Assembly (NCBI RefSeq): GCF_010730955.1
Contig: NZ_AP022577.1
Location: 930,001 to 994,000 of the forward strand
Direction of reading: 5' to 3'
DNA: 64,000 bases
Source of the DNA: Mycolicibacterium aubagnense
Lineage (GTDB): Bacteria > Actinomycetota > Actinomycetes > Mycobacteriales > Mycobacteriaceae
Below the pieces are notes generated by a model. The model searched no databases, was not told the origin of the DNA, and was given only the letters and a program-made list of their open reading frames with translations. Numbering within the stretch: position 1 is the first letter of the stretch; the number at the start of each line of letters is the position of its first letter. The position numbers and the translations under genes were made by a program. Positions 43,717-62,534 of the stretch are shown one piece after another.

Positions 43717-44480
43717 ACACGTCGGGACACCACGGCGGTGACGGTGGCACACAGCGAACTTGCCGGTAGTCCGATCAGCGCCAGCTCCGGCGTGTGGACC
43801 AACACGGCGTAACCGAAGCACACGCCCACGCCGAACACGACGGCTTCGCCACGCGTCCAGTGCGCTGGTGGTTCCAGCCGGGTCGACATCAACAAACCGA
43901 CTGCGAACGCGATCGCGTGACCAGCCTCGGTGAAGTCGCTGCTGACCACCAGTACCGCGACGGCGCCGGCCAGCCACCAGCCGAGCCACACCGGCTTCAG
44001 TCGCGCGGGCACCACTGCGGTCAGCGCTCCGACCACCGTCAACACCCCATAGCTGACCCCGACATCGGCCACTCGGCTGATGGACCGCGGCAACCATCCG
44101 AGCTCGACCGCGACCACCAACCCCGCGGCGACGACGAGCGTGGTGACGACATGGCCGACGAAGAACATCACCACCAGCCGGCGGCTTCGCCAGCGCAGTT
44201 CAACTGCCGCGAGCAGGCAGATCAGGCCGGGCAGCCAGAAGTAGAACAAGTCGTCATCGGCGATGAATGCACTGCTGAGCAAGGTGCCGAAGCGGCCGTG
44301 GGCCAGGTTGTGCAGATTGGTACTGGCGTACTCGATCACCCGGTCATGGACGCCAGGCCCCAGCGCCGCCATGACGGCCGTGACGGCGACCAGCAAGACG
44401 GCGTAGGCGACGGTGACCGGGACGCGGTGCAGGTGGCGCCACACCGTGCCGACCCTAGGCCTCAGCGAGCTCCCCGTCAT
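43656..44480 (-). CDS. rhomboid-like integral membrane protein (Rv1648-type)
   Basis: 274 residues, about six to seven membrane helices. NLHNLAHGRFGTLLSSAF (~55-72) matches the helix-2 region of rhomboids, and a possible Ser-His dyad is present: Ser143 in DVGVSYGVL and His188 in EAGHAIAFAVG. The Ser motif is GxSYG rather than GxSG, so proteolysis is uncertain. The start is either ATG 44480, overlapping the cyclase by 26 bp, or GTG 44444, which lies 7 nt after TAGGGT (44457-44452); the second would be leaderless. Rv1648 has the same neighbours. Confidence 0.75.
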   Translation of the reverse strand: MTGSSLRPRVGTVWRHLHRVPVTVAYAVLLVAVTAVMAALGPGVHDRVIEYASTNLHNLAHGRFGTLLSSAFIADDDLFYFWLPGLICLLAAVELRWRSRRLVVMFFVGHVVTTLVVAAGLVVAVELGWLPRSISRVADVGVSYGVLTVVGALTAVVPARLKPVWLGWWLAGAVAVLVVSSDFTEAGHAIAFAVGLLMSTRLEPPAHWTRGEAVVFGVGVCFGYAVLVHTPELALIGLPASSLCATVTAVVSRRVQTKSSGRDTAQSARQDSGG

Positions 44481-45357
44481 CGGGCTCGGTGCCCGCGTCC
44501 TTGCGCGGCCTGATCCAGTACATGGCCAAATCCTCGGGCACGCCCGACGCCTTCGCGGCGAACAGTTGCTTGCGCACCTTCTTGGGCGTGACGCCGAGGG
44601 CGTCGAGGTACTGCTGGTCGATCCGGTCGAGCGTGGCCTGCGAAATGATCAGCCCGCCCTTGGTGGCCCGCTCCATGACGCGGGCCGCGATGTTGACGTC
44701 GACGCCGAGCAGGTCCGACCCGATGCGCTGCGGGTGCCCGGTGTGAATGCCGGCCCGCATCTTTGGGTGATATCCGTCGATCTCGACGTCTTTGAGCGCA
44801 TCGAGTGCGCGGATGACCGACCGCAGCGCGGTGACCGGGTTGCTGAACACGGCCATGCACCCGTCGCCCATGCGTTTCACGATGTGGCCACCGGACTCCA
44901 GCAGCGGCGGCTCGAAGACCTGGGCCACACGACGAAGCAGCCGCAGCGTGGTCTCGTCACCGACACTCAGCGACCATTTCGAGAAGCCCACCAGATCGGT
45001 GAACACGACGGTCACTTCGGGGTTTGCCGGCCGCCCCGAGACCCTTTCGGTGAGCGCCTGCCACACCTGCAGCCCCGCCAGGCTGACCTCGTGCGACGCG
45101 CCGCCGCGAGGCAGCAGCCGATCTGCGGCACGCGCCGCCGCGCTGGGCCCGCCCACCCCGGCCACCGACAGCGGGTCACCGAATTCGGGGTCCCCCGGTA
45201 GCGCACGGCGAGCCCGTCGGATGAATCCGACGACAGCCGGACTGTGATTGGTGTTCTGCAACCACCCCAACGGTCCACTTGATCCTGGCGCAGCGTGCGA
45301 CGCTGGGCCGATCTCTCCGACACCGTCGGATCGTTCTTCGAACGATTCGACTTCCAC
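44455..45357 (-). CDS. class III adenylyl cyclase
   Basis: 300 residues, soluble. The N-terminal ~105 residues (with ARRALPGDPEFGDPLS) form a regulatory segment; the cyclase homology domain follows. All catalytic positions are found: metal-binding Asp121 (VFTDLVGFS) and Asp165 (RMGDGCMAVF), adenine-specifying Lys161 and Asp215, transition-state Asn222 and Arg226 (VNIAARVME). It should therefore make cAMP as a homodimer. Orthologue of Rv1647, described as pH-sensitive. GTG 45357 lies exactly 6 nt after TAGGGT (45369-45364), predicting a leaderless mRNA. Confidence 0.93.
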   Translation of the reverse strand: MEVESFEERSDGVGEIGPASHAAPGSSGPLGWLQNTNHSPAVVGFIRRARRALPGDPEFGDPLSVAGVGGPSAAARAADRLLPRGGASHEVSLAGLQVWQALTERVSGRPANPEVTVVFTDLVGFSKWSLSVGDETTLRLLRRVAQVFEPPLLESGGHIVKRMGDGCMAVFSNPVTALRSVIRALDALKDVEIDGYHPKMRAGIHTGHPQRIGSDLLGVDVNIAARVMERATKGGLIISQATLDRIDQQYLDALGVTPKKVRKQLFAAKASGVPEDLAMYWIRPRKDAGTEPDDGELAEA

Positions 45358-54075: not shown

Positions 54076-55143
54076 CTAGTAGTCGGCTTCAGCGGCCAGA
54101 ATCTCGGCAAGGAAGGCATCGGGGCCGGGCGCCGTGAGCCGGGCACGGACATAGCGCCGGACCCGGTCCCGAACGGCTTCCGTCTCGCCGGTCTGCGCAC
54201 CGACGGTCACCGTGGTATCGGTCCAATCATGGCCCCACGCTTGGGTTTCGGTGGCCGGCAACGGCAAAGTGGCATTGCCGTCGACGTCGAGCGTGCCGCC
54301 ACCGGTGATGGGCCCCGAGTCCAGGCGTACCGGTATCCCGTCTGCAGGGCCGATTGTGGCGACGCGGATATCGGCGACGACGGCACCGTCACGCGCGTGC
54401 ACGGACCAGTCGATGGTGTGCTCGGCGGCGTCGAATATCCGCGGTGGCACCGCGGTCCACGAGACCGATGCGACGCCGCCCGCGATGGCGCCGGTGTCGC
54501 CGCCACCGGGTTGCCCGGCGGCGAGCGCATAGTCGTCCCGCCTCGACTGTGCCCGCGCCCCAAGGACTTCCGACCAGTCCCCCAGGCCGGCGTCGTCGGC
54601 GAGGCCGATGCAGCGCCCGACCAGATCGAGCACCCGCGGATCACCGGAGGCCGCGAGGCGCGCCAACGCCTCACGGTGCGGGGTCAGTAGTCCGGCGATA
54701 TCCGAATCCAGAGTGTCCTGGCTGAAGTAGTCCTCCGACACCGCCGTCGACAGCGCGACCTCGGCGTCGAGCACCGCGGCGTCGAGCGGGGCGATGCCGT
54801 CACGCGCACTGGCGGGCCACCATCGCCGCAGCCAGTGCCCGACGGCCAGACGTCGAAGTGCGGCAAGGGGTTCGGGTAGCGGCAGCACGTCGGCAAGGTC
54901 GACGCTGCCGGCTTCCGTGGCTGTTTCAGCGGCGGCGACCACCGCCACGTGCCCGGCCTCCCCGACCAGCCGCCACAACCAGTCGGCCGCAGGCAGATCC
55001 GTGAACGTGATCCGGACCACCTGCGCTGCGTCGTGGATCGTCCACGCCAGGACCGCGCCGCTGACTTCGAGCACCGCAACCTCGGGTGGTGCCTCGACCT
55101 CGGACCCCAAGGCCCACAACCCGGAATCGACAGTCAGTTTCAT
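54076..55143 (-). CDS. unrecognised protein, last gene of the TPR-CHAT operon
   Basis: 355 residues, soluble, acidic. I do not recognise a family. The first ~100 residues are beta-rich with a repeated Trp/Val pattern (VLEVSGAVLAWTIHDAAQVVRITF). A helical middle follows (~120-200, LTPHREALARLAASGDPRVLDLVGR), then a beta-sandwich-like C-terminus (TIDWSVHARDGAVVADIRVATI, GGGTLDVDGNATLPLP), and a final helix (EAVRDRVRRYVRARLTAPG). No signal peptide or catalytic motif. It overlaps the preceding gene by 4 bp (ATGA), so it is made together with it. Possible substrate, effector or sensor for the CHAT protease. Confidence 0.75.
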   Translation of the reverse strand: MKLTVDSGLWALGSEVEAPPEVAVLEVSGAVLAWTIHDAAQVVRITFTDLPAADWLWRLVGEAGHVAVVAAAETATEAGSVDLADVLPLPEPLAALRRLAVGHWLRRWWPASARDGIAPLDAAVLDAEVALSTAVSEDYFSQDTLDSDIAGLLTPHREALARLAASGDPRVLDLVGRCIGLADDAGLGDWSEVLGARAQSRRDDYALAAGQPGGGDTGAIAGGVASVSWTAVPPRIFDAAEHTIDWSVHARDGAVVADIRVATIGPADGIPVRLDSGPITGGGTLDVDGNATLPLPATETQAWGHDWTDTTVTVGAQTGETEAVRDRVRRYVRARLTAPGPDAFLAEILAAEADY

Positions 55144-56459
55144 CCTGTCGCCTCCAATTCCAGCATCGCCTTGATGCGCTGGCGGTGATCGAGGCTGACC
55201 GATCTGGCGACCCCGTCCAAGAGGCCACGCACCTCGCCGGCATCACCGCAGGATTCCTGCCAGACGTCACGTCCGTGCAGTCGTGCCCACAGCCGGGAGA
55301 CGTAGGGACGGACGAACGCCGCGAGGTCGTCCACGACGTGCTGCTGTCGTGGGTGGACCGGGCCGCCGTCGGTCAGGTACCGGCGGGCGTGCAGCACATA
55401 CGCTTCCTTGCGGAGCCGGGCCTGGATCTGGCCTGCCAGGTGGTAGCGCGACCGGTGGTGCACCTCCAGAGGTGCCAGGTCCATCCCGATCTCGATGCCG
55501 GCGACCAGCGTGGCCTGATTGTCCTCGGCCAGCAGGCCCCACGGTGAAGCCGCGCGGTCCGCCTCTTCGGCGCACAGGGTCGGCAGGTCGGGCAGCTCGT
55601 CGCGGTCGAGAGCTCGGCGCAGTGTCGCCCGGACGCGGTCGACGACGCTGCGATCGAGCGGACGTTCGGCAGCGCGGGAGCCGACGACCGCCGGCTTCGA
55701 TTGCGGTGCCGCCGCGGACAATCCGATCTGGTCGACCGACCACGGCGCGGCAGCCGAGGCGTCACGCATCCGGGCACCGAAGTTGTACGGGGTGGCATCG
55801 CTGATCAATGCGGTCCAGACGCGCTGCCGTGCGGCGTCGGCGTTGTGTCCGCCCGACGGACCGAGCACCGTCGTCAACCCGGCGAAAAAAGGCGCGGAGG
55901 GCTCGCCTCCAGCCCGGACGTCACGCCAGCAGGCGTCGAGTTGGCGCGACAACGTCTCCAGCACTGCCGGATCGGCGAGATACTCGTGCAGCCGCTCCAC
56001 CGCGGTGCGGTCCCGGTCGCCGTGCACGTCGCGCAGCGCTTCTGCGACAACGTGTGAATCATCCTGTCCCGGTTCGCCTCTGGTGGCAGCCAGTTCGAAA
56101 CACACCGGGAAATAGAGCTCTTGGGCGTTACCGGTGGTGATGCGGTCGCGGCGGCGCTGCGCCTTGAGCAGCGCGAACCACATTGCCGCAGCGCGCAGCT
56201 GAGCCGCGTGATCGATGATCACCCGGCGCATCTCGTCGGCGATATCGACGGCGACCACGGGTGCCGAATATTCGGGGTGCACCCGGAGCCGGAGCACCAA
56301 CGGATCGATGATCCGCTTCACCGCGCGGCTCAGCGGACCGCCGTCGGGACTGCTCAGCAGTTCGAGCCCGGGCCCGATCGCACGCCACGCGGCGTCGATG
56401 ACGGCGCGACGTGGCTGCGGCCCGCTGGTCATCGGCTCAGGATAGGCGGTCGGCGGCAT
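55140..56459 (-). CDS. unrecognised helical protein of the TPR-CHAT operon
   Basis: 439 residues, cytoplasmic, mostly helical, Arg/Ala/Asp-rich. No domain recognised. Distinct blocks are RVHPEYSAPVVAVDIADEMR (~58-77), YFPVCFELAATRGEPGQDDS (~115-134), SPWGLLAEDNQATLVAGIEI (~305-324) and a strongly basic HHRSRYHLAGQIQARLRKEA. The WGLLA string recalls the WGLLAQP of the neighbouring CHAT protein but is too short to prove relation. ATG 56459 follows the CHAT stop by 2 bp, and its own stop overlaps the next start. Function unknown; association with the CHAT protease is inferred from linkage. Confidence 0.75.
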   Translation of the reverse strand: MPPTAYPEPMTSGPQPRRAVIDAAWRAIGPGLELLSSPDGGPLSRAVKRIIDPLVLRLRVHPEYSAPVVAVDIADEMRRVIIDHAAQLRAAAMWFALLKAQRRRDRITTGNAQELYFPVCFELAATRGEPGQDDSHVVAEALRDVHGDRDRTAVERLHEYLADPAVLETLSRQLDACWRDVRAGGEPSAPFFAGLTTVLGPSGGHNADAARQRVWTALISDATPYNFGARMRDASAAAPWSVDQIGLSAAAPQSKPAVVGSRAAERPLDRSVVDRVRATLRRALDRDELPDLPTLCAEEADRAASPWGLLAEDNQATLVAGIEIGMDLAPLEVHHRSRYHLAGQIQARLRKEAYVLHARRYLTDGGPVHPRQQHVVDDLAAFVRPYVSRLWARLHGRDVWQESCGDAGEVRGLLDGVARSVSLDHRQRIKAMLELEATG

Positions 56460-56461
56460 GG

Positions 56462-57661
56462 TCAGCGCGCGCCGTCGACGGTGAAGGTCATCAGGGCCGC
56501 CCAGTAGACGGGGCTGAGCGCGGCGTCACCGGTTCGCCAGCGGCGCAGGCAGTCTCGCTGCCAGCGGTTGACGGCACGGGCCGGCGTCGCCGCCTCGTGT
56601 GCCGTGTCGACGGCGATGATCACCTCGGACATCGGATCAGAGTCCCCAGAGGTGGCAGTCCGGTATCCGGCCGTCGTCGGCAGTGACCACAGGGTCGCGG
56701 TAACCACCTGTGCGCCACCCAGAATCATCGCCGCCACCAGTCCGGTGGCTTCGTCGAACCGGTAGTCGGCGCCCGATGCGCATGCCAACAACGCGACCCG
56801 GGGCGGGACTGCCCATCCCTTCACCATGATGTCGGCGGCGGTCAGCGGCTCGGGCTCGGCGAGATGCAGCGCGGCCTGGTCGGCCGAGCCATCGCGGTCA
56901 GGGGCCGCGCTGGCGTGGCCGACATACACCAGCCGTGCCGGCTGCTGCGCCAACTGATCCGCCAGCCAGTGCCGGTCGGCGTCAGCGCGGCGGAAGAGCT
57001 GCCCGGGTTCGGTGACCGCCGGCAGCGCGGGGCGCCCGGCGAAGTGCCGGGCCAGCACGGTATCCGACGAAGGTCGCCCCAGCACCGAGCCGAGTGCCGA
57101 ATCCGGCCGTTGGCCCGGTACCTTCGGGTCCAGCAGCAGAAGTGGTGGCCCGGCCGGATTCGCTTGGCGACGGGGCGCATTCGCGATGTTCGGCGGTACC
57201 GCGAGCAGGAGGTCGGTGAGTTCGATCAGGCGCCGGTCGTCGTTGCCCGTGGGCTGGGCGAGCAGGCCCCACGGCACGCGGCTCAGGCGGGCGCTCGGTG
57301 ACACGAACAGCACCGGCGGCTCCGGCTCGCCCGTGTACTGCCGCACCAGATCCCACGCCTCATCGGGTAGCAGTGCACCCAGCAACCGGGCGAGTTCGCG
57401 CTCCCGTGCGACGGTCGAGAACGGGCCGGCGGCGAGAGACCGGATCAGTGCATCGGAAATGTGTTCGTCGGCAAGCGGATCCGGCAACGCCTCGGCCAGC
57501 GCCGAGGTTACCGCGAGGAGAATATCCTCGGCCACCGTCCAGGTGACCAGCCGCTCGGGCGAGCCGACCACCCGCAGGCTGACATACGTCGCGATCCCGA
57601 CATCGGCGAAGCGCAGCACCAACGTCATTGTGGTGGTGTCGGTTACGGGCATGTCGACCAC
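56462..57661 (-). CDS. CHAT-domain caspase-like protease
   Basis: 399 residues. A ~130-residue N-terminal part with the RLSRVPWGLLAQPTGNDD lead-in typical of CHAT proteins is followed by the CHAT fold. The catalytic dyad is visible: His249 in RLVYVGHASAAPD and Cys294 in RVALLACASGADYRF, with the downstream AAMILGGAQVVTATLWSLP strand. CHAT peptidases (separase/caspase clan CD), usually fused to TPRs, act in programmed death and in phage defence. Here the TPR protein is separate and its gene overlaps this start by 19 bp. GTG 57661 has AGGA just upstream; ATG 57652 is an alternative. Confidence 0.9.
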   Translation of the reverse strand: MVDMPVTDTTTMTLVLRFADVGIATYVSLRVVGSPERLVTWTVAEDILLAVTSALAEALPDPLADEHISDALIRSLAAGPFSTVARERELARLLGALLPDEAWDLVRQYTGEPEPPVLFVSPSARLSRVPWGLLAQPTGNDDRRLIELTDLLLAVPPNIANAPRRQANPAGPPLLLLDPKVPGQRPDSALGSVLGRPSSDTVLARHFAGRPALPAVTEPGQLFRRADADRHWLADQLAQQPARLVYVGHASAAPDRDGSADQAALHLAEPEPLTAADIMVKGWAVPPRVALLACASGADYRFDEATGLVAAMILGGAQVVTATLWSLPTTAGYRTATSGDSDPMSEVIIAVDTAHEAATPARAVNRWQRDCLRRWRTGDAALSPVYWAALMTFTVDGAR

Positions 57662-59367
57662 GCGTCCTGATCCGCGGTGACGGCGCGGCCATACCGGGCC
57701 GCGGCCAGCTCACGGTAACGCGCCAGCACCGGCTCACCGTCCGGTTCCATCCGCAGCGGCGGCAGCGGCCCGAGGCGGATCAGGCCGGCAGCGCCGACAG
57801 CGACCGGCCCGGAGGCGACCGCGGCCAGCTGCTCGACATCGATGACCGGCGCCGCCGTCGTGGTGGCCCGGGCCCACTCCCTCGTCGCGTCCTTCGCAGC
57901 GCCGACGCTGAACGCACCTCGGGCGCTGTGATATTCGATCAGTTCGCCGACCAGGACCGGATCCTGCGATTCCCACGCCACCGCGAACGCTCCGGCAAGC
58001 AGCGGTGCGGCGACCCCGGTGGCCCAGCGTGCGCGGGCGTCGGCATCGGTGATCGAATACCGCACCGAATCGACGGCCAGGGCGGCCGGCACCTTCAGGT
58101 CGGCCGCGGTGGCCAATTTGGCCATACCGGCCCGGTATTGGTCGGTGCCCGGTTCGGCGGACCAGGCCCCGACGGCATTGCGATAGCGCGCTTCGGCCTG
58201 CGCCCACGTATCGGTCGGATTCCCCGCAGCGTCAAAGCCCAGGTCCGCGAGTCCCTCGGCGCGCCAGACCGTACCGAGCTGGTCGTCCAACCGGGCGTAC
58301 TGCAGCCAACTGCTGCGCGGCGAGGAATCCAGGCAGTCGCGGGCCTGACCGACGAGCGCCCGCGCTTCGTCATAGTGGCCACGGAAAATGGCGATCCAGC
58401 TGCGCTGCAACAGGATGCGGTGCACGTGCAGCGGCTTGCCGAGTTCTCGCCAGTGCCGCTCGGCATGGCCCCAGCATTCGTCGGCGGCCTGCAGCGCACC
58501 GACCGCCAGCCGGGTCAGCCCGAAGTACAGCCAGCAGCGGGATACCTCGTGGGCCCGCGCCTGCCGCGCGATCTCGGGATACGCAGCGGTGACGAGTGCC
58601 TCGGTGGACTGTTGGTCACCGGCCAGCCAGCTCACCGCCGCTCGCTCCAATTGTGCTCTGGCCGTGGCCAATTCCCAACCGCGGGCCTGTGCCCGGGCCT
58701 CGGCGCGACGCAGCCACGGCAGGGCCTCGTCGACCCTGCCGGTTTCAATGCAGAACCGCGCGTAGCCGAGTGCCCCGGTCAGCCAGAGATATTCACGCTC
58801 CGGGCCGTCCGCCGGCGTGGCGACCGTCGCCAGCACCCGTTCCCACAACGGCACCGAGCGAACGTGCAGGTCGTCGTCGCAGAGCGCCAGCGCACACAGA
58901 ATGCGGGCGTGGGTGAGGAGGTACGCGTGTTCGTCCTCCAGATCGGAGTACGGCGACCGGTTGTCCAGCGCGGTCAGGGACTGCGCCGCGCCCTCGTGGT
59001 CGCCGATGGCGGCGGCCAGGCCAGTCCGCAGGAACGTGGCCCGACGGCGGTAGCGGCTGAGCATGTGATCCGCGTCCTCGGGGGTGATGGTCATCTGCGC
59101 GACGATCTCGGCCGGCGCGCGGCCGGCCAGGATCGACGCGTAGATGTCGAGGCAGTCGTCGATCCGCCGGATGCATTCGCGCACGCCGTCCAGCGCGCTG
59201 CGGATCAGATAGATCTCGCCGAGCTGGGCGAAGACCTCGAGCATCTGGTCGTCGCGGTCGGCCGCTTCGATGGCGGGCATCAGCGACAGCAGGAGTTCTT
59301 TGGCTGTCGGCTCGTCGGCGGCGAACATCAGCGCGCGGGCGCGGGAGAGTTCGCCGGTGATCGACAC
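57643..59367 (-). CDS. TPR-repeat sensor-like partner of the CHAT protease
   Basis: 574 residues, cytoplasmic, built of helical TPR-type repeats from ~20 to ~430, for example EVFAQLGEIYLIRSALDGVR, ALPWLRRAEARAQARGWELA and AWIAIFRGHYDEARALVG-like units. The C-terminal ~130 residues (ARWATGVAAPLLAGAFAVAW, then LVGELIEYHSARGAFSVG) resemble the linker that in single-chain TPR-CHAT proteins joins repeats to protease. This looks like a fused ancestor split in two. GTG 59367 is exactly 6 nt after TATGAT (59379-59374), so the operon is leaderless. First gene of four. Confidence 0.82.
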   Translation of the reverse strand: MSITGELSRARALMFAADEPTAKELLLSLMPAIEAADRDDQMLEVFAQLGEIYLIRSALDGVRECIRRIDDCLDIYASILAGRAPAEIVAQMTITPEDADHMLSRYRRRATFLRTGLAAAIGDHEGAAQSLTALDNRSPYSDLEDEHAYLLTHARILCALALCDDDLHVRSVPLWERVLATVATPADGPEREYLWLTGALGYARFCIETGRVDEALPWLRRAEARAQARGWELATARAQLERAAVSWLAGDQQSTEALVTAAYPEIARQARAHEVSRCWLYFGLTRLAVGALQAADECWGHAERHWRELGKPLHVHRILLQRSWIAIFRGHYDEARALVGQARDCLDSSPRSSWLQYARLDDQLGTVWRAEGLADLGFDAAGNPTDTWAQAEARYRNAVGAWSAEPGTDQYRAGMAKLATAADLKVPAALAVDSVRYSITDADARARWATGVAAPLLAGAFAVAWESQDPVLVGELIEYHSARGAFSVGAAKDATREWARATTTAAPVIDVEQLAAVASGPVAVGAAGLIRLGPLPPLRMEPDGEPVLARYRELAAARYGRAVTADQDAWSTCP

Positions 59368-59373
59368 GGCCGC

Positions 59374-59379
59374 ATCATA
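59374..59379 (-). promoter_or_regulatory. -10 box of the TPR-CHAT operon
   Basis: TATGAT followed by 6 nt and GTG 59367, with no Shine-Dalgarno. It is the same spacing and hexamer as pheS. No -35 match at 17-18 bp, and no obvious operator in the 96-bp gap other than the lpqH-side hairpin. Confidence 0.6.
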
Positions 59380-59412: not shown

Positions 59413-59444
59413 GCGGGTGCATCCGACTTCATGGATGCACCCGC
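59413..59444 (-). terminator. hairpin behind the LpqH-like gene
   Basis: GCGGGTGCATCC (59413-59424) and GGATGCACCCGC (59433-59444) are perfect 12-bp arms with an 8-nt loop, 20 bp after the lipoprotein stop. There is no U-tract, which is common for mycobacterial terminators. It may insulate the TPR-CHAT operon from lpqH transcription. Confidence 0.7.
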
Positions 59445-59463: not shown

Positions 59464-59949
59464 TCAGCCGCAGGTCACCTTGATCTCGAAGTTTTTCGAG
59501 ATCATCCCGGCCATCGGGTTCTTCATGTCAGCACCCGCGGCCTGACCGGTGATGGTGTACGTGCTGCCGTCGACCTTGACGTCGGCCGACCCGGTCTTCA
59601 TGCCGCCCATCTCGGACACCGCGAGTGCGTTGCCGTCGACCACCAGGCCCAGGGACTGCACCTTCGGCGGTGCCGCGTCGGTCATCACGACGCCGAGGCC
59701 CTGCGCGCCGCCGCCGATGGGAGCACTGGCGATATTGATGGTGCCGGCCTGCTTCACGCAGGTCACCGACTTCAGGTCCAGGCCGGCCAGGTCCTGGCCC
59801 TCGACCTTCACCACAGTGTTGCCGCCATTGCTCACCGAACCCGGGCCGGACGCCTTCGGACCGTCCCCCTTGTCGGTGGAGCAGCCGATCAGGGTGGCGC
59901 CCACGGCCAGCATGCCAATACCAGCGGCCAGAGTGCGATTGATGTTCAT
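59464..59949 (-). CDS. lpqH: LpqH-type (19-kDa antigen family) lipoprotein
   Basis: 161 residues. The signal peptide MNINRTLAAGIGMLAVGATL ends in the lipobox LIGC, with the acylated Cys23. A Gly/Ser/Lys-rich linker (STDKGDGPKASGPGSVSNGG) leads to the compact domain with two Cys (SVTCVKQ and KVTCG), as in the mycobacterial 19-kDa lipoprotein family. These are surface lipoproteins and TLR2 ligands. It could be one of several paralogues, so the symbol marks the family. A purine-rich AAGGAAGG lies ~12 nt before ATG 59949. Confidence 0.85.
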   Translation of the reverse strand: MNINRTLAAGIGMLAVGATLIGCSTDKGDGPKASGPGSVSNGGNTVVKVEGQDLAGLDLKSVTCVKQAGTINIASAPIGGGAQGLGVVMTDAAPPKVQSLGLVVDGNALAVSEMGGMKTGSADVKVDGSTYTITGQAAGADMKNPMAGMISKNFEIKVTCG

Positions 59950-60428: not shown

Positions 60429-61535
60429 GTGACGCGGTCACTCGTCGGCCTGCACGGCACCGACCCCGCCACGCCGTACCTGTCGCTGTGGGCGCGGCTG
60501 CCCGGTTTCACCGTCACCGATCTGGACAGCGCGCTCTACCGCGACCGCGGTCTGGTCAAGCACATGGCCATGCGCCGAACGCTGTGGGTCGTGCACACCG
60601 CGGACCTGCCCGCGGTGCAGGCCGCGGCCAGCGATCGCGTGGCGGCCACCGAGCGCAAACGACTGATCGGCGACGTCGAGAAAGCAGGTATCGCGGCCGA
60701 CGGCGAGGCCTGGCTGGAGCTCGCGTCGGCCGCGGTCCGCGGGCACCTGGACGCGGGTTTGGTGGCCGGGACCGCTGCGCTCCGAGCTGCCTTGCCCGAG
60801 CTGGCGGGCAGCTGGGATCCGGCGCCCGGAAAGACCTGGGGCGGGAGTACTCCCGTTGCGCCGCGGGTCATGACCGTGCTGTCCGCGCAGGGCCAGGTAC
60901 TGCGCGGCCCCAACGACGGTATGTGGACGACGGCGCGCCCGCTGTGGGCCGCGGCGGCGCACTGGTTACCTGAACCGGCCGCTGCCCTGGACCCCGACGC
61001 AGCCCGCGCAGCGCTGCTGCGCCCCTGGCTGCGCACTTTCGGCCCCGCCACTGCCACCGACGTGAAGTGGTGGTTCGGCCAGACGCTGTCATGGGCCCGC
61101 GAGGGGCTGCGCTCGATCGATGCAGTGGCAGTGGCGCTGGAAGGCTGCGATGACGCCGGGTACGTACTGCCCGATGATCTCGACGCCGCTCCCCCGGTTT
61201 CCCCCTGGGGTGCACTGCTGCCCGGGCTGGACCCGACCGTCATGGGCTGGCAGGCCCGTTCGTGGTACCTCGGCCCGCACGCCGGGCAGCTGTTCGACCG
61301 CTCCGGCAATGCCGGGCCCACGATCTGGTGGGACGGCCGCCTCGTCGGCGCCTGGGGTCAGGACGCCGACGGCCGGGTGCGGCTCGAGTACGTCGAAGAC
61401 GTCGGGGCATCGGCACGGAAGGTGCTGCAGCGCAAGGCCTCCGAGCTGACGGACTGGCTCGACGGGGTACGGATCAAGCCGCGATTTCCCTCGCCGCTCG
61501 CACAGTTCCTGTCAGGAAAGGCCAGAACGCCTTGA
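60429..61535 (+). CDS. winged-helix DNA-binding (AlkZ/HTH_42-like) protein, N-terminus possibly disrupted
   Basis: 368 residues from GTG 60429. VTRSLVGLHGTDPATPYLSLWAR and KHMAMRRTLWVVHTADLPAVQ are the start of the tandem winged-helix HTH_42 family, which includes the interstrand-crosslink glycosylase AlkZ. The later GPATATDVKWWFGQTLSWAR and WWDGRLVGAW are also family motifs. Relatives usually begin some 25-30 residues earlier with an (M)xTFxxAERR motif; here LHTFSIAERR is readable from TTG 60380 in a different frame. A small out-of-frame deletion near 60410 would explain this. Catalytic competence is therefore uncertain. Confidence 0.82.
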   Translation: MTRSLVGLHGTDPATPYLSLWARLPGFTVTDLDSALYRDRGLVKHMAMRRTLWVVHTADLPAVQAAASDRVAATERKRLIGDVEKAGIAADGEAWLELASAAVRGHLDAGLVAGTAALRAALPELAGSWDPAPGKTWGGSTPVAPRVMTVLSAQGQVLRGPNDGMWTTARPLWAAAAHWLPEPAAALDPDAARAALLRPWLRTFGPATATDVKWWFGQTLSWAREGLRSIDAVAVALEGCDDAGYVLPDDLDAAPPVSPWGALLPGLDPTVMGWQARSWYLGPHAGQLFDRSGNAGPTIWWDGRLVGAWGQDADGRVRLEYVEDVGASARKVLQRKASELTDWLDGVRIKPRFPSPLAQFLSGKARTP

Positions 61536-61546
61536 TCGTCAGGCAG

Positions 61547-62404
61547 CTAAAGAATCGCATCGGCCAGTAGATCCAGTTGTTCGACGGCCGCGCCGGTCGG
61601 ATGGAACAGCAGCCGGTCGAAACCGAGTTCGCGATACCGGCGCACCGTTTGGCGGGCATCCTCCGCGGAACAGACCATATCGTCGACATTCACCTGCGCG
61701 TACTCCGGAGAGAAGCCGTAGTAGCGGGCCAAGTGCTCCCGACCTGCCGCGACCGCATCAGCCGGCCCGAGGCCGAAGTTCACCGATGCCTGCAGGTACG
61801 GACGGCCGGGTCGCCCGGCGGCCTGCCAGCCGGTGCGGATCTGCTCGGCCAACTCTGACTGGGCATCGTAATGACGCACGGCACCGGCTGCCCACCCGTT
61901 GCCGACGGCGATGACCCGCCGCACTGTGGCCGGCGACCGGCCGCCGAAAAGCAGCGGAATACTCGCGGGCGCAGGGCATAACGCGCCGCCATCGGCGACC
62001 GGATCGCCGGCCCACAGCCGGCGCATCCGCTCGACCTGCTCGTCGAGAATCCGGCCACGCCGTCCGAAATCCGAACCAGTACTGGCATAGTCGTCAGGCC
62101 GGTTGCCGACGCCAAGACCGACGACCAGTCGGCCGCCGCACATCTGATCCACGCTGGCGAGTTGTTTCGCGAGCGGAACAACCGGATACAACGGTGCCAG
62201 AAGAACATTCGTCACCAGTGTCAGCCCCTTGGTCGCACCCGCCGCCGCTGCCAGCGTGATCAGTGGGTCAACGCCCGGGTACAACATCCGGTCTATTGCG
62301 GTGACCGATTCGAACCCACGTTGTTCGGCACGGCGGGCCCAATCGATCAAGGTCGCACCCGACACACCGGCGATGTGGTTTGGCAGCCCGATTCCCAGTT
62401 CCAT
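61547..62404 (-). CDS. LLM-class (luciferase-like) F420-dependent oxidoreductase
   Basis: 285 residues, single TIM-barrel domain. MELGIGLPNHIAGVSGATLI, ITLAAAAGATKGLTLVTNVL, LASVDQMCGGRLVVGLGVG and RPDDYASTGSDFGRRGRILD follow the bacterial luciferase/F420 family in order. F420 rather than FMN use is the usual case in mycobacteria but cannot be proven here. GGAGG is 4 nt from ATG 62404, which rules out the longer frame. It is divergent from the tandem Lrp regulator, and a 12-bp palindrome lies 14 bp upstream of its start. Confidence 0.9.
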   Translation of the reverse strand: MELGIGLPNHIAGVSGATLIDWARRAEQRGFESVTAIDRMLYPGVDPLITLAAAAGATKGLTLVTNVLLAPLYPVVPLAKQLASVDQMCGGRLVVGLGVGNRPDDYASTGSDFGRRGRILDEQVERMRRLWAGDPVADGGALCPAPASIPLLFGGRSPATVRRVIAVGNGWAAGAVRHYDAQSELAEQIRTGWQAAGRPGRPYLQASVNFGLGPADAVAAGREHLARYYGFSPEYAQVNVDDMVCSAEDARQTVRRYRELGFDRLLFHPTGAAVEQLDLLADAIL

Positions 62405-62417
62405 CGTGCCTCCTTCG

Positions 62418-62429
62418 GTTGACGTCAAC
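62418..62429. promoter_or_regulatory. 12-bp palindrome upstream of the LLM oxidoreductase gene
   Basis: GTTGACGTCAAC is a perfect palindrome in the 130-bp divergent region between the LLM gene and the Lrp-type regulator. Its place just before the Shine-Dalgarno suits an operator. Binding by the neighbouring regulator is an inference. Confidence 0.45.
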
Positions 62430-62534
62430 TGGCCGGACTCCAGCTTCGGCGACACGTCGAACTTCGACAACAAGACTGGCCCTGATCGTCAAAAACAGGC
62501 AACTGATAGCAATATTCGGTAGATTATCCTCACC

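Follow-up and report, generated by a model that had tools for sequence, protein, structure and literature searches.

Few CHAT proteases, which are bacterial relatives of caspases, have a substrate known to us. Among the closest described systems is Craspase, or CASP, of type III-E CRISPR, which is composed of Cas7-11, the TPR-CHAT protein Csx29, its substrate Csx30, Csx31 and CASP-sigma. In the passages cited here, the CHAT protease Csx29 cuts the two-domain protein Csx30, the N-terminal fragment of which seems to be unstable, and the authors cite RseA and ClpXP for comparison (PMC10028731). After cleavage RseA has VAA at its end and is counted among the substrates of ClpXP, and endoproteolysis can expose cryptic degrons (PMC8138137, in the parts cited). 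The locus described here lies in a stretch of 64,000 nucleotides (hereafter the window) of Mycolicibacterium aubagnense, contig NZ_AP022577.1, positions 930,001 to 994,000. It consists of four minus-strand genes encoding a TPR-repeat protein, a CHAT protease and two further proteins of 439 and 355 amino acids (aa). These genes are inherited together, the catalytic dyad of the protease is intact, and the linker of the 355-aa protein contains a near-invariant peptide resembling the tag encoded by transfer-messenger RNA (tmRNA, or SsrA).

We propose that this unit acts as a proteolytic switch encoded on the chromosome. Its sensing and cutting core would consist of the TPR protein and the CHAT protease, as a TPR-CHAT protein split between two genes, with the helical 439-aa protein as a partner of this core and the 355-aa protein as the dedicated substrate. 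When triggered, CHAT would cut the disordered interdomain linker of the 355-aa protein near the peptide (R)x(D/E)YALAAG. A cut after YALAA would leave the N-terminal domain ending like an SsrA tag and pass it to a Clp protease. The loss of this domain would free either the C-terminal immunoglobulin (Ig)-like domain or a partner bound to the lost domain, much as with cleaved anti-sigma factors. The original prediction had cast both unrecognised proteins as substrate, inhibitor or effector; the evidence now points to the 355-aa protein as the substrate. That CHAT cuts it in the linker, between residues 198 and 215, is a tentative claim, which we place a little short of even. The degron step, in which the cleaved linker end is handed to Clp, is improbable, and so is the whole, a CHAT switch with a copy of the SsrA tag end hidden in its substrate, which would belong to the resident genes of most mycobacteria (18 of the 23 congeneric genomes sampled). 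A protease, its probable substrate and a candidate cut region are proposed here from conservation alone, for a gene set common in this sample and including two protein families outside Pfam. If true, a single cut would turn half of the 355-aa protein into a Clp substrate by means of the tmRNA code, and the link to the tag would join caspase-like signalling to ribosome-rescue degrons.

The gene unit and the linker of the 355-aa protein

The four open reading frames (ORFs) of the quartet were confirmed in the sequence. Its features, in window coordinates, are given below; pLDDT is the predicted local distance difference test score of the structure model.

54076..55143, minus strand: two-domain protein of 355 aa, ATG start, proposed substrate of CHAT (structure model)
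54499..54552, minus strand: residues 198-215 of the 355-aa protein, its interdomain linker (pLDDT below 50)
54514..54531, minus strand: YALAAG, residues 205-210 of the 355-aa protein, SsrA-tag-like (linker motif)
55140..56459, minus strand: all-helical protein of 439 aa, ATG start, without Pfam family or confident fold match
56462..57661, minus strand: CHAT (clan CD) protease of 399 aa, GTG start (Pfam PF12770, E = 1.7e-14)
56780..56782, minus strand: codon of catalytic Cys294 of CHAT (conserved in the CHAT alignment)
56915..56917, minus strand: codon of catalytic His249 of CHAT (conserved in the CHAT alignment)
57643..59367, minus strand: TPR-repeat protein of 574 aa, GTG start, predicted sensor or scaffold (its family adjoins CHAT in relatives' loci)
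59374..59379, minus strand: TATGAT, a -10 element at a distance that suits a leaderless GTG start (sequence)
59414..59443, minus strand: terminator-like stem-loop between the lipoprotein gene and the TPR gene (read by eye)
59464..59949, minus strand: lipoprotein of the 19-kDa antigen family (PF05481, E = 2.4e-30), 161 aa, probable fifth member

The CHAT protease matched PF12770 with 54.4 bits (curated cut-off 24). The dyad residues named in the original prediction, His249 and Cys294, were present in 108 of 108 full-length rows of the alignment, as were G248 and D299, the 109th row being a 99-aa fragment; loss of the dyad in orthologues was looked for and not seen. The TPR protein gave weak Pfam matches, the best of which (TPR_MalT, 7.6e-4) lay below the cut-off. 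TPR and CHAT are encoded by separate ORFs in the window and also in the relatives' loci that were fetched. Neither the 439-aa nor the 355-aa protein matched a Pfam family at E ≤ 1, and a search of NCBIfam yielded a single match, far under its cut-off (16.5 of 163 bits). The model of the 439-aa protein is all-helical (pLDDT 88.2, predicted template modelling score (pTM) 0.68) and had no confident fold match. The 355-aa model (mean pLDDT 90.8, pTM 0.87) comprises an N-terminal strand/helix domain, a linker and an Ig-like beta-sandwich with C-terminal helices, and only residues 198-215 fall below a pLDDT of 50. Searches of PDB sequences with the CHAT, 439-aa and 355-aa profiles gave no match worth noting.

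The linker contains R201-R-D-D-Y-A-L-A-A-G210, an example of the near-invariant peptide xDYALAAG, also written (R)x(D/E)YALAAG. YALAAG ranked 10th in conservation among the 350 six-residue windows of the protein, those ranked above it being tryptophan-rich and lying around residues 53-59 and 102-113. The pattern (Y/F/L)(A/S)LAA was found in 100 of the 106 profile-recognised family rows, the others having YALVAG (five rows) or being masked (one); Gly followed ALAA in 98 of these 100 rows. Three of four Microbacterium-type proteins kept the motif (L172, P0242 and P0243; P0244 has FSAGG). The linker is under strong constraint. Chance would be a poor account of the motif, because (D/E)(Y/F)ALAA did not occur once, although (Y/F)ALAA occurred 40 times, in the 510,623 residues of the 1460 other predicted proteins of the loci, which are crude gene calls, many of them orthologous to one another.

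The tmRNA tag of this genome, read with ARAGORN, is ADSHQRDYALAA, and the corresponding part of the linker is SRRDDYALAA. Tags were likewise read in 25 further genomes, and 23 of the 26 were set against the linker; the comparison left out G003 and G112 (no 355-aa gene by profile in the stretch fetched) and G030 (a far relative without such a motif). Linker and tag shared a C-terminal run of six residues in 13 genomes, five in four and four in six, the part common to all 23 being ALAA. The part of the SsrA tag recognised by ClpX is contained in ALAA, and tags of the LVA variant, as used in laboratories, are active.

Several points weigh against cleavage of the linker and exposure of a degron. 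Strict covariation of linker and tag was considered and gave a mixed outcome. Of the seven linkers paired with an F-type tag, one has F, four have L and two have Y; in the 16 genomes with Y-type tags, D or E agrees between linker and tag in 13, mostly because D is frequent in both. The motif is missing or changed in P0244 and in two far relatives, L122 and L120. ALAA, being alanine-rich, could have a structural role, and the low pLDDT, a property of the model, is weak proof that the linker is disordered. For the clan CD proteases known to us, the residue before the cut is usually Arg, Lys, Asp or Asn and not Ala. Arg or Lys is present no more than four residues upstream of the motif in 93 of the 100 rows, so a cut after a basic residue is equally possible; with such a cut, the degron reading fails and the substrate reading holds. 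In Csx30, moreover, the cut falls in a loop within the C-terminal domain and not in the interdomain linker, according to the cited part of PMC10028731. Finally, cutting by CHAT, the contacts between the proteins and the formation of a complex are all steps that we infer.

The arrangement of the genes agrees with the original prediction in every detail: the TPR and CHAT genes overlap by 19 bp (57643-57661), 2 bp separate the CHAT and 439-aa genes (56460-56461), and the 439-aa and 355-aa genes overlap by 4 bp (55140-55143). Upstream, TATGAT (59374-59379) is followed by six bases and by the GTG start of the TPR gene (59365-59367). The promoter and start behind the proposed leaderless reading are conserved: TAnGAT-N6-(G/A)TG precedes or forms the start of 71 among 77 TPR genes of mycobacteria (of the six without it, two lie at contig ends), with a 22-base string that is identical in 28 of these 71. 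The exact string TATGAT-N6-GTG occurred 67 times in the 2.58 million strand-bases of loci L030-L109. Leaderless transcripts are frequent in mycobacteria, as stated in the part of PMC4633059 cited here. Beyond the lipoprotein gene, Pfam identified an AlkZ-like DNA glycosylase at 60429-61535; at the other end, the gap between the 355-aa gene and lysX is shorter than 100 bp.

Distribution and inheritance of the unit

The original prediction placed the genes in a non-conserved stretch between lysX and uvrA. This does not hold for the genes themselves, as 1131 homologues of the 439-aa protein and 1303 of the 355-aa protein were found at E 0.001 among about 8000 scored candidates for each. Of the best 120 listed for each protein, those with a genus name were from Mycobacterium or Mycolicibacterium, save one Microbacteriaceae metagenome-assembled genome. 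Scanning of named genomes with the 439-aa protein gave 203 relatives, with 78 of the best 80 in Mycobacterium or Mycolicibacterium; the nearest among the matches listed were those of Mycobacterium sp. ST-F2 and M. llatzerense, both with 92%.

A sample of 295 genomes of the class was searched with three alignments (439-aa, 355-aa and CHAT), the TPR profile being used for the five congeneric genomes lacking this trio. Among 121 genomes of the family, the 439-aa protein was present in 23 and CHAT in 27. In the class sample, the 439-aa protein was found in 26 genomes, the 355-aa protein in 27, CHAT in 34 and all three in 25 of 295, with the genes neighbouring one another across genera, which upholds the co-occurrence across actinobacteria on which the original prediction depended. 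In all of the 25 genomes but G173, where CHAT was on another contig, the trio took up no more than about 6 kb of a single contig. Exceptions to the trio were G208, with a 439-aa remnant containing a stop, G312, with CHAT and the 355-aa protein but not the 439-aa protein, G132, whose sole match was a weak one to the 355-aa protein, and eight genomes with CHAT alone, in seven of which the match was weak or partial; in the eighth, G134, it was strong and partial, with a stop. Among the congeneric genomes, 18 of 23 had CHAT and the 439-aa and 355-aa proteins, and five had none of the three; with the TPR profile, four of these five gave weak generic matches and one gave none. The distribution was patchy beyond the genus, with 7 carriers in the remaining 272 genomes. 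Around alkZ in the five congeners without the trio, none of the four genes was present, nor was the lipoprotein gene; a single short ORF lay between lysX and alkZ in three, and lysX was outside the stretch in two.

Gene order was studied in 111 loci (L030-L129 and L156-L166), picked for a 439-aa or CHAT relative and in which species may recur. The TPR, CHAT, 439-aa and 355-aa genes were all called in 93; the remaining 18 were loci cut off at a contig end, loci in which a gene had been missed and loci retrieved just for CHAT, and six missed 355-aa genes were recovered by six-frame searching. The order in Mycobacterium is lipoprotein-TPR-CHAT-439-355. In genera g15 and g22 of the same family, the lipoprotein gene is divergent from 439-355-TPR-CHAT, and this second order of the quartet recurs in f17, f18 and the retrieved plasmid records of Streptomyces and Nocardia (L160 ends after the 355-aa gene). 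The quartet thus stays together despite two gene orders differing between clades.

In the 44 loci with lysX, the distances of the four proteins intercorrelated (r 0.78-0.87) and followed those of lysX (r 0.82-0.87; shuffled maxima 0.10-0.23), and for this reason inheritance looks vertical in this mycobacterial subset. The four proteins diverge at about double the rate of lysX (mean distance 0.29-0.43, versus 0.17). Co-evolution beyond common descent was considered and not retained, the partial correlations among the four after the removal of lysX reaching only 0.17-0.51.

A gene for a 19-kDa-type lipoprotein adjoins the unit at 78 places, beside TPR at 71 and beside the 439-aa gene at seven, although the genome studied here has five PF05481 genes, only one of which lies next to the unit. 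Given this adjacency and the absence of the gene from the five empty sites, it is probably a fifth member of the unit, so that the four-gene operon of the original prediction stands as a quartet and is probably incomplete as a unit. It is doubtful that the lipoprotein gene is merely a neighbour of a functional unit of four. Such a view would accommodate its own stem-loop and promoter and the lack of a lipoprotein match beside the f17 and f18 copies; however, the adjacency holds in either orientation, under both gene orders and in several places of the genome, and the gene is gone together with the unit in five of five lacking congeners. The lipoprotein gene and TPR are probably separate transcripts, because the stem-loop stands between them; similar stem-loops were seen by eye in many of the upstream stretches inspected in relatives.

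Several further observations were made on these loci. At L030:10380-11753, an esterase-like gene (PF00756) separates the 355-aa gene from lysX, which is not so in the window, and L031-L034 have genes of the same size. An extra gene of about 100-227 aa is often present between CHAT and the 439-aa gene in Mycobacterium, antiparallel where printed; its 60 examples form one BLAST cluster (L039:7330-7995, L040:7452-7907, L064:7618-7929 and 57 more), the three tested had no Pfam match, and it is absent from the window. Far loci with CHAT and TPR have other helical partners (L122:9630-15961, L172:5330-13510, L120:8830-16887 and L119:8728-14000). A relationship between the 439-aa family and the partners at L122 (567 aa) and L119 (499 aa) was rejected (hhalign E 0.51 and 0.56). 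Proteins resembling the 355-aa protein are encoded by L172 and L122, and the far loci may represent a broader family of quartets. The 355-aa-like protein of L122, with 467 aa, matched the 355-aa profile in pairwise profile comparison (E = 1.3e-6), and a deeper family therefore exists for this component. Remnants of CHAT or of the 439-aa gene without the rest of the unit (L121:9761-10057, L173:8394-8903 and, in G208, around C1:4086685) are apparent cases of decay.

Other roles for the unit

Association with the lipoprotein gene raises the possibility of an envelope-stress regulator, with the lipoprotein as sentinel or client and CHAT cutting altering the handling of the cell wall or of lipoproteins. 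The persistence of the adjacency in a genome with five such genes, the joint absence around alkZ and distances that follow lysX, as expected for resident genes, are in keeping with this role. Nevertheless, we consider it rather unlikely: the f17 and f18 copies have no lipoprotein match (except for one of 13 bits, at L162), nor does the Streptomyces plasmid copy L204, the stem-loop splits the lipoprotein gene from TPR, and we know of no envelope phenotype.

An infection-triggered, abortive anti-phage system of the Craspase or ternary-conflict type appears about equally doubtful. The patchiness outside the genus and the presence of 439-aa homologues on six plasmid records, five of them of Streptomyces, would suit such a system, and CHAT/TPR and caspase proteases are found in systems of this kind (PMC10028731 and PMC8195603, in the parts cited). 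On the other hand, none of the four proteins matched a PADLOC family at E ≤ 1 (library dated 2023), none of the phage records searched has the 439-aa gene, and inheritance is apparently vertical in mycobacteria; the death or defence role of the original prediction stays a hypothesis. The surroundings, in which the original prediction saw no CRISPR or defence gene, offer no clear defence gene either. No CRISPR-like direct repeats were found between 40000 and 64000 of the window, and eight of the ten neighbouring ORFs had no PADLOC match, with no Cas match among the ten. The other two matched weakly. The ORF at 44455-45357, some 9 kb away from the unit, matched the nucleotide-cyclase model PycC with 40 bits, and that at 61547-62473 matched an oxidoreductase with 23 bits. 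These are enzymes of general types, and the first is probably an ordinary cyclase.

Docking is an unlikely alternative to cleavage. Here YALAAG would be a docking peptide, the linker fitting into a groove on either the TPR or the 439-aa protein and holding the complex together, and CHAT would cut another protein, from the host or from an invader. In favour of docking, short peptides are common ligands of TPR proteins, YALAAG is conserved although the stretch preceding it, counted from the alignment column of residue 185, can have between 5 and 37 residues, and the LAAG core is preserved although no constant basic or acidic residue occupies P1. Against it, the likeness to the tmRNA tag, extending to six residues in 13 of 23 genomes, has no role in such binding.

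Comparison with described systems

A literature search found nothing on this unit, which is no proof that it is unpublished. Like Craspase, the unit combines a TPR component with a CHAT protease and further partner genes, and it includes an adjoining two-domain protein, modelled with a flexible linker, that is a candidate substrate; these likenesses hold for the parts of the Craspase work cited above. Unlike Craspase, it encodes no Cas protein detected by Pfam or PADLOC in its four genes, its TPR and CHAT moieties are separate polypeptides and its inheritance in mycobacteria appears mostly vertical. We know of no Craspase counterpart of the helical 439-aa partner or of the lipoprotein. Judged by sequence, the unit is not a Craspase, because TPR and CHAT are separate and neither a Cas protein nor an array was found beside them. 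It also resembles CATRA, in that a caspase-fold protease is accompanied by family-specific partners, a likeness drawn in part from the passage of PMC8195603 cited above. By profile, however, the unit does not appear to be CATRA: the CATRA models of the Pfam scans gave no match to the 439-aa protein, the 355-aa protein or the relatives tested at E ≤ 1, and a search of this genome with PF20270 (CATRA-C) gave none either, its controls being silent as well. The anti-sigma factors RseA and RsiW differ in depending on site-1 and site-2 proteases (DegS/RseP-type) in place of a CHAT protease, and Pfam recognised no sigma factor in the unit. By analogy, the proposed switch would nonetheless work as they do with ClpXP, a cut by an endoprotease exposing an SsrA-like degron (PMC8138137 and PMC10028731, in the parts cited).

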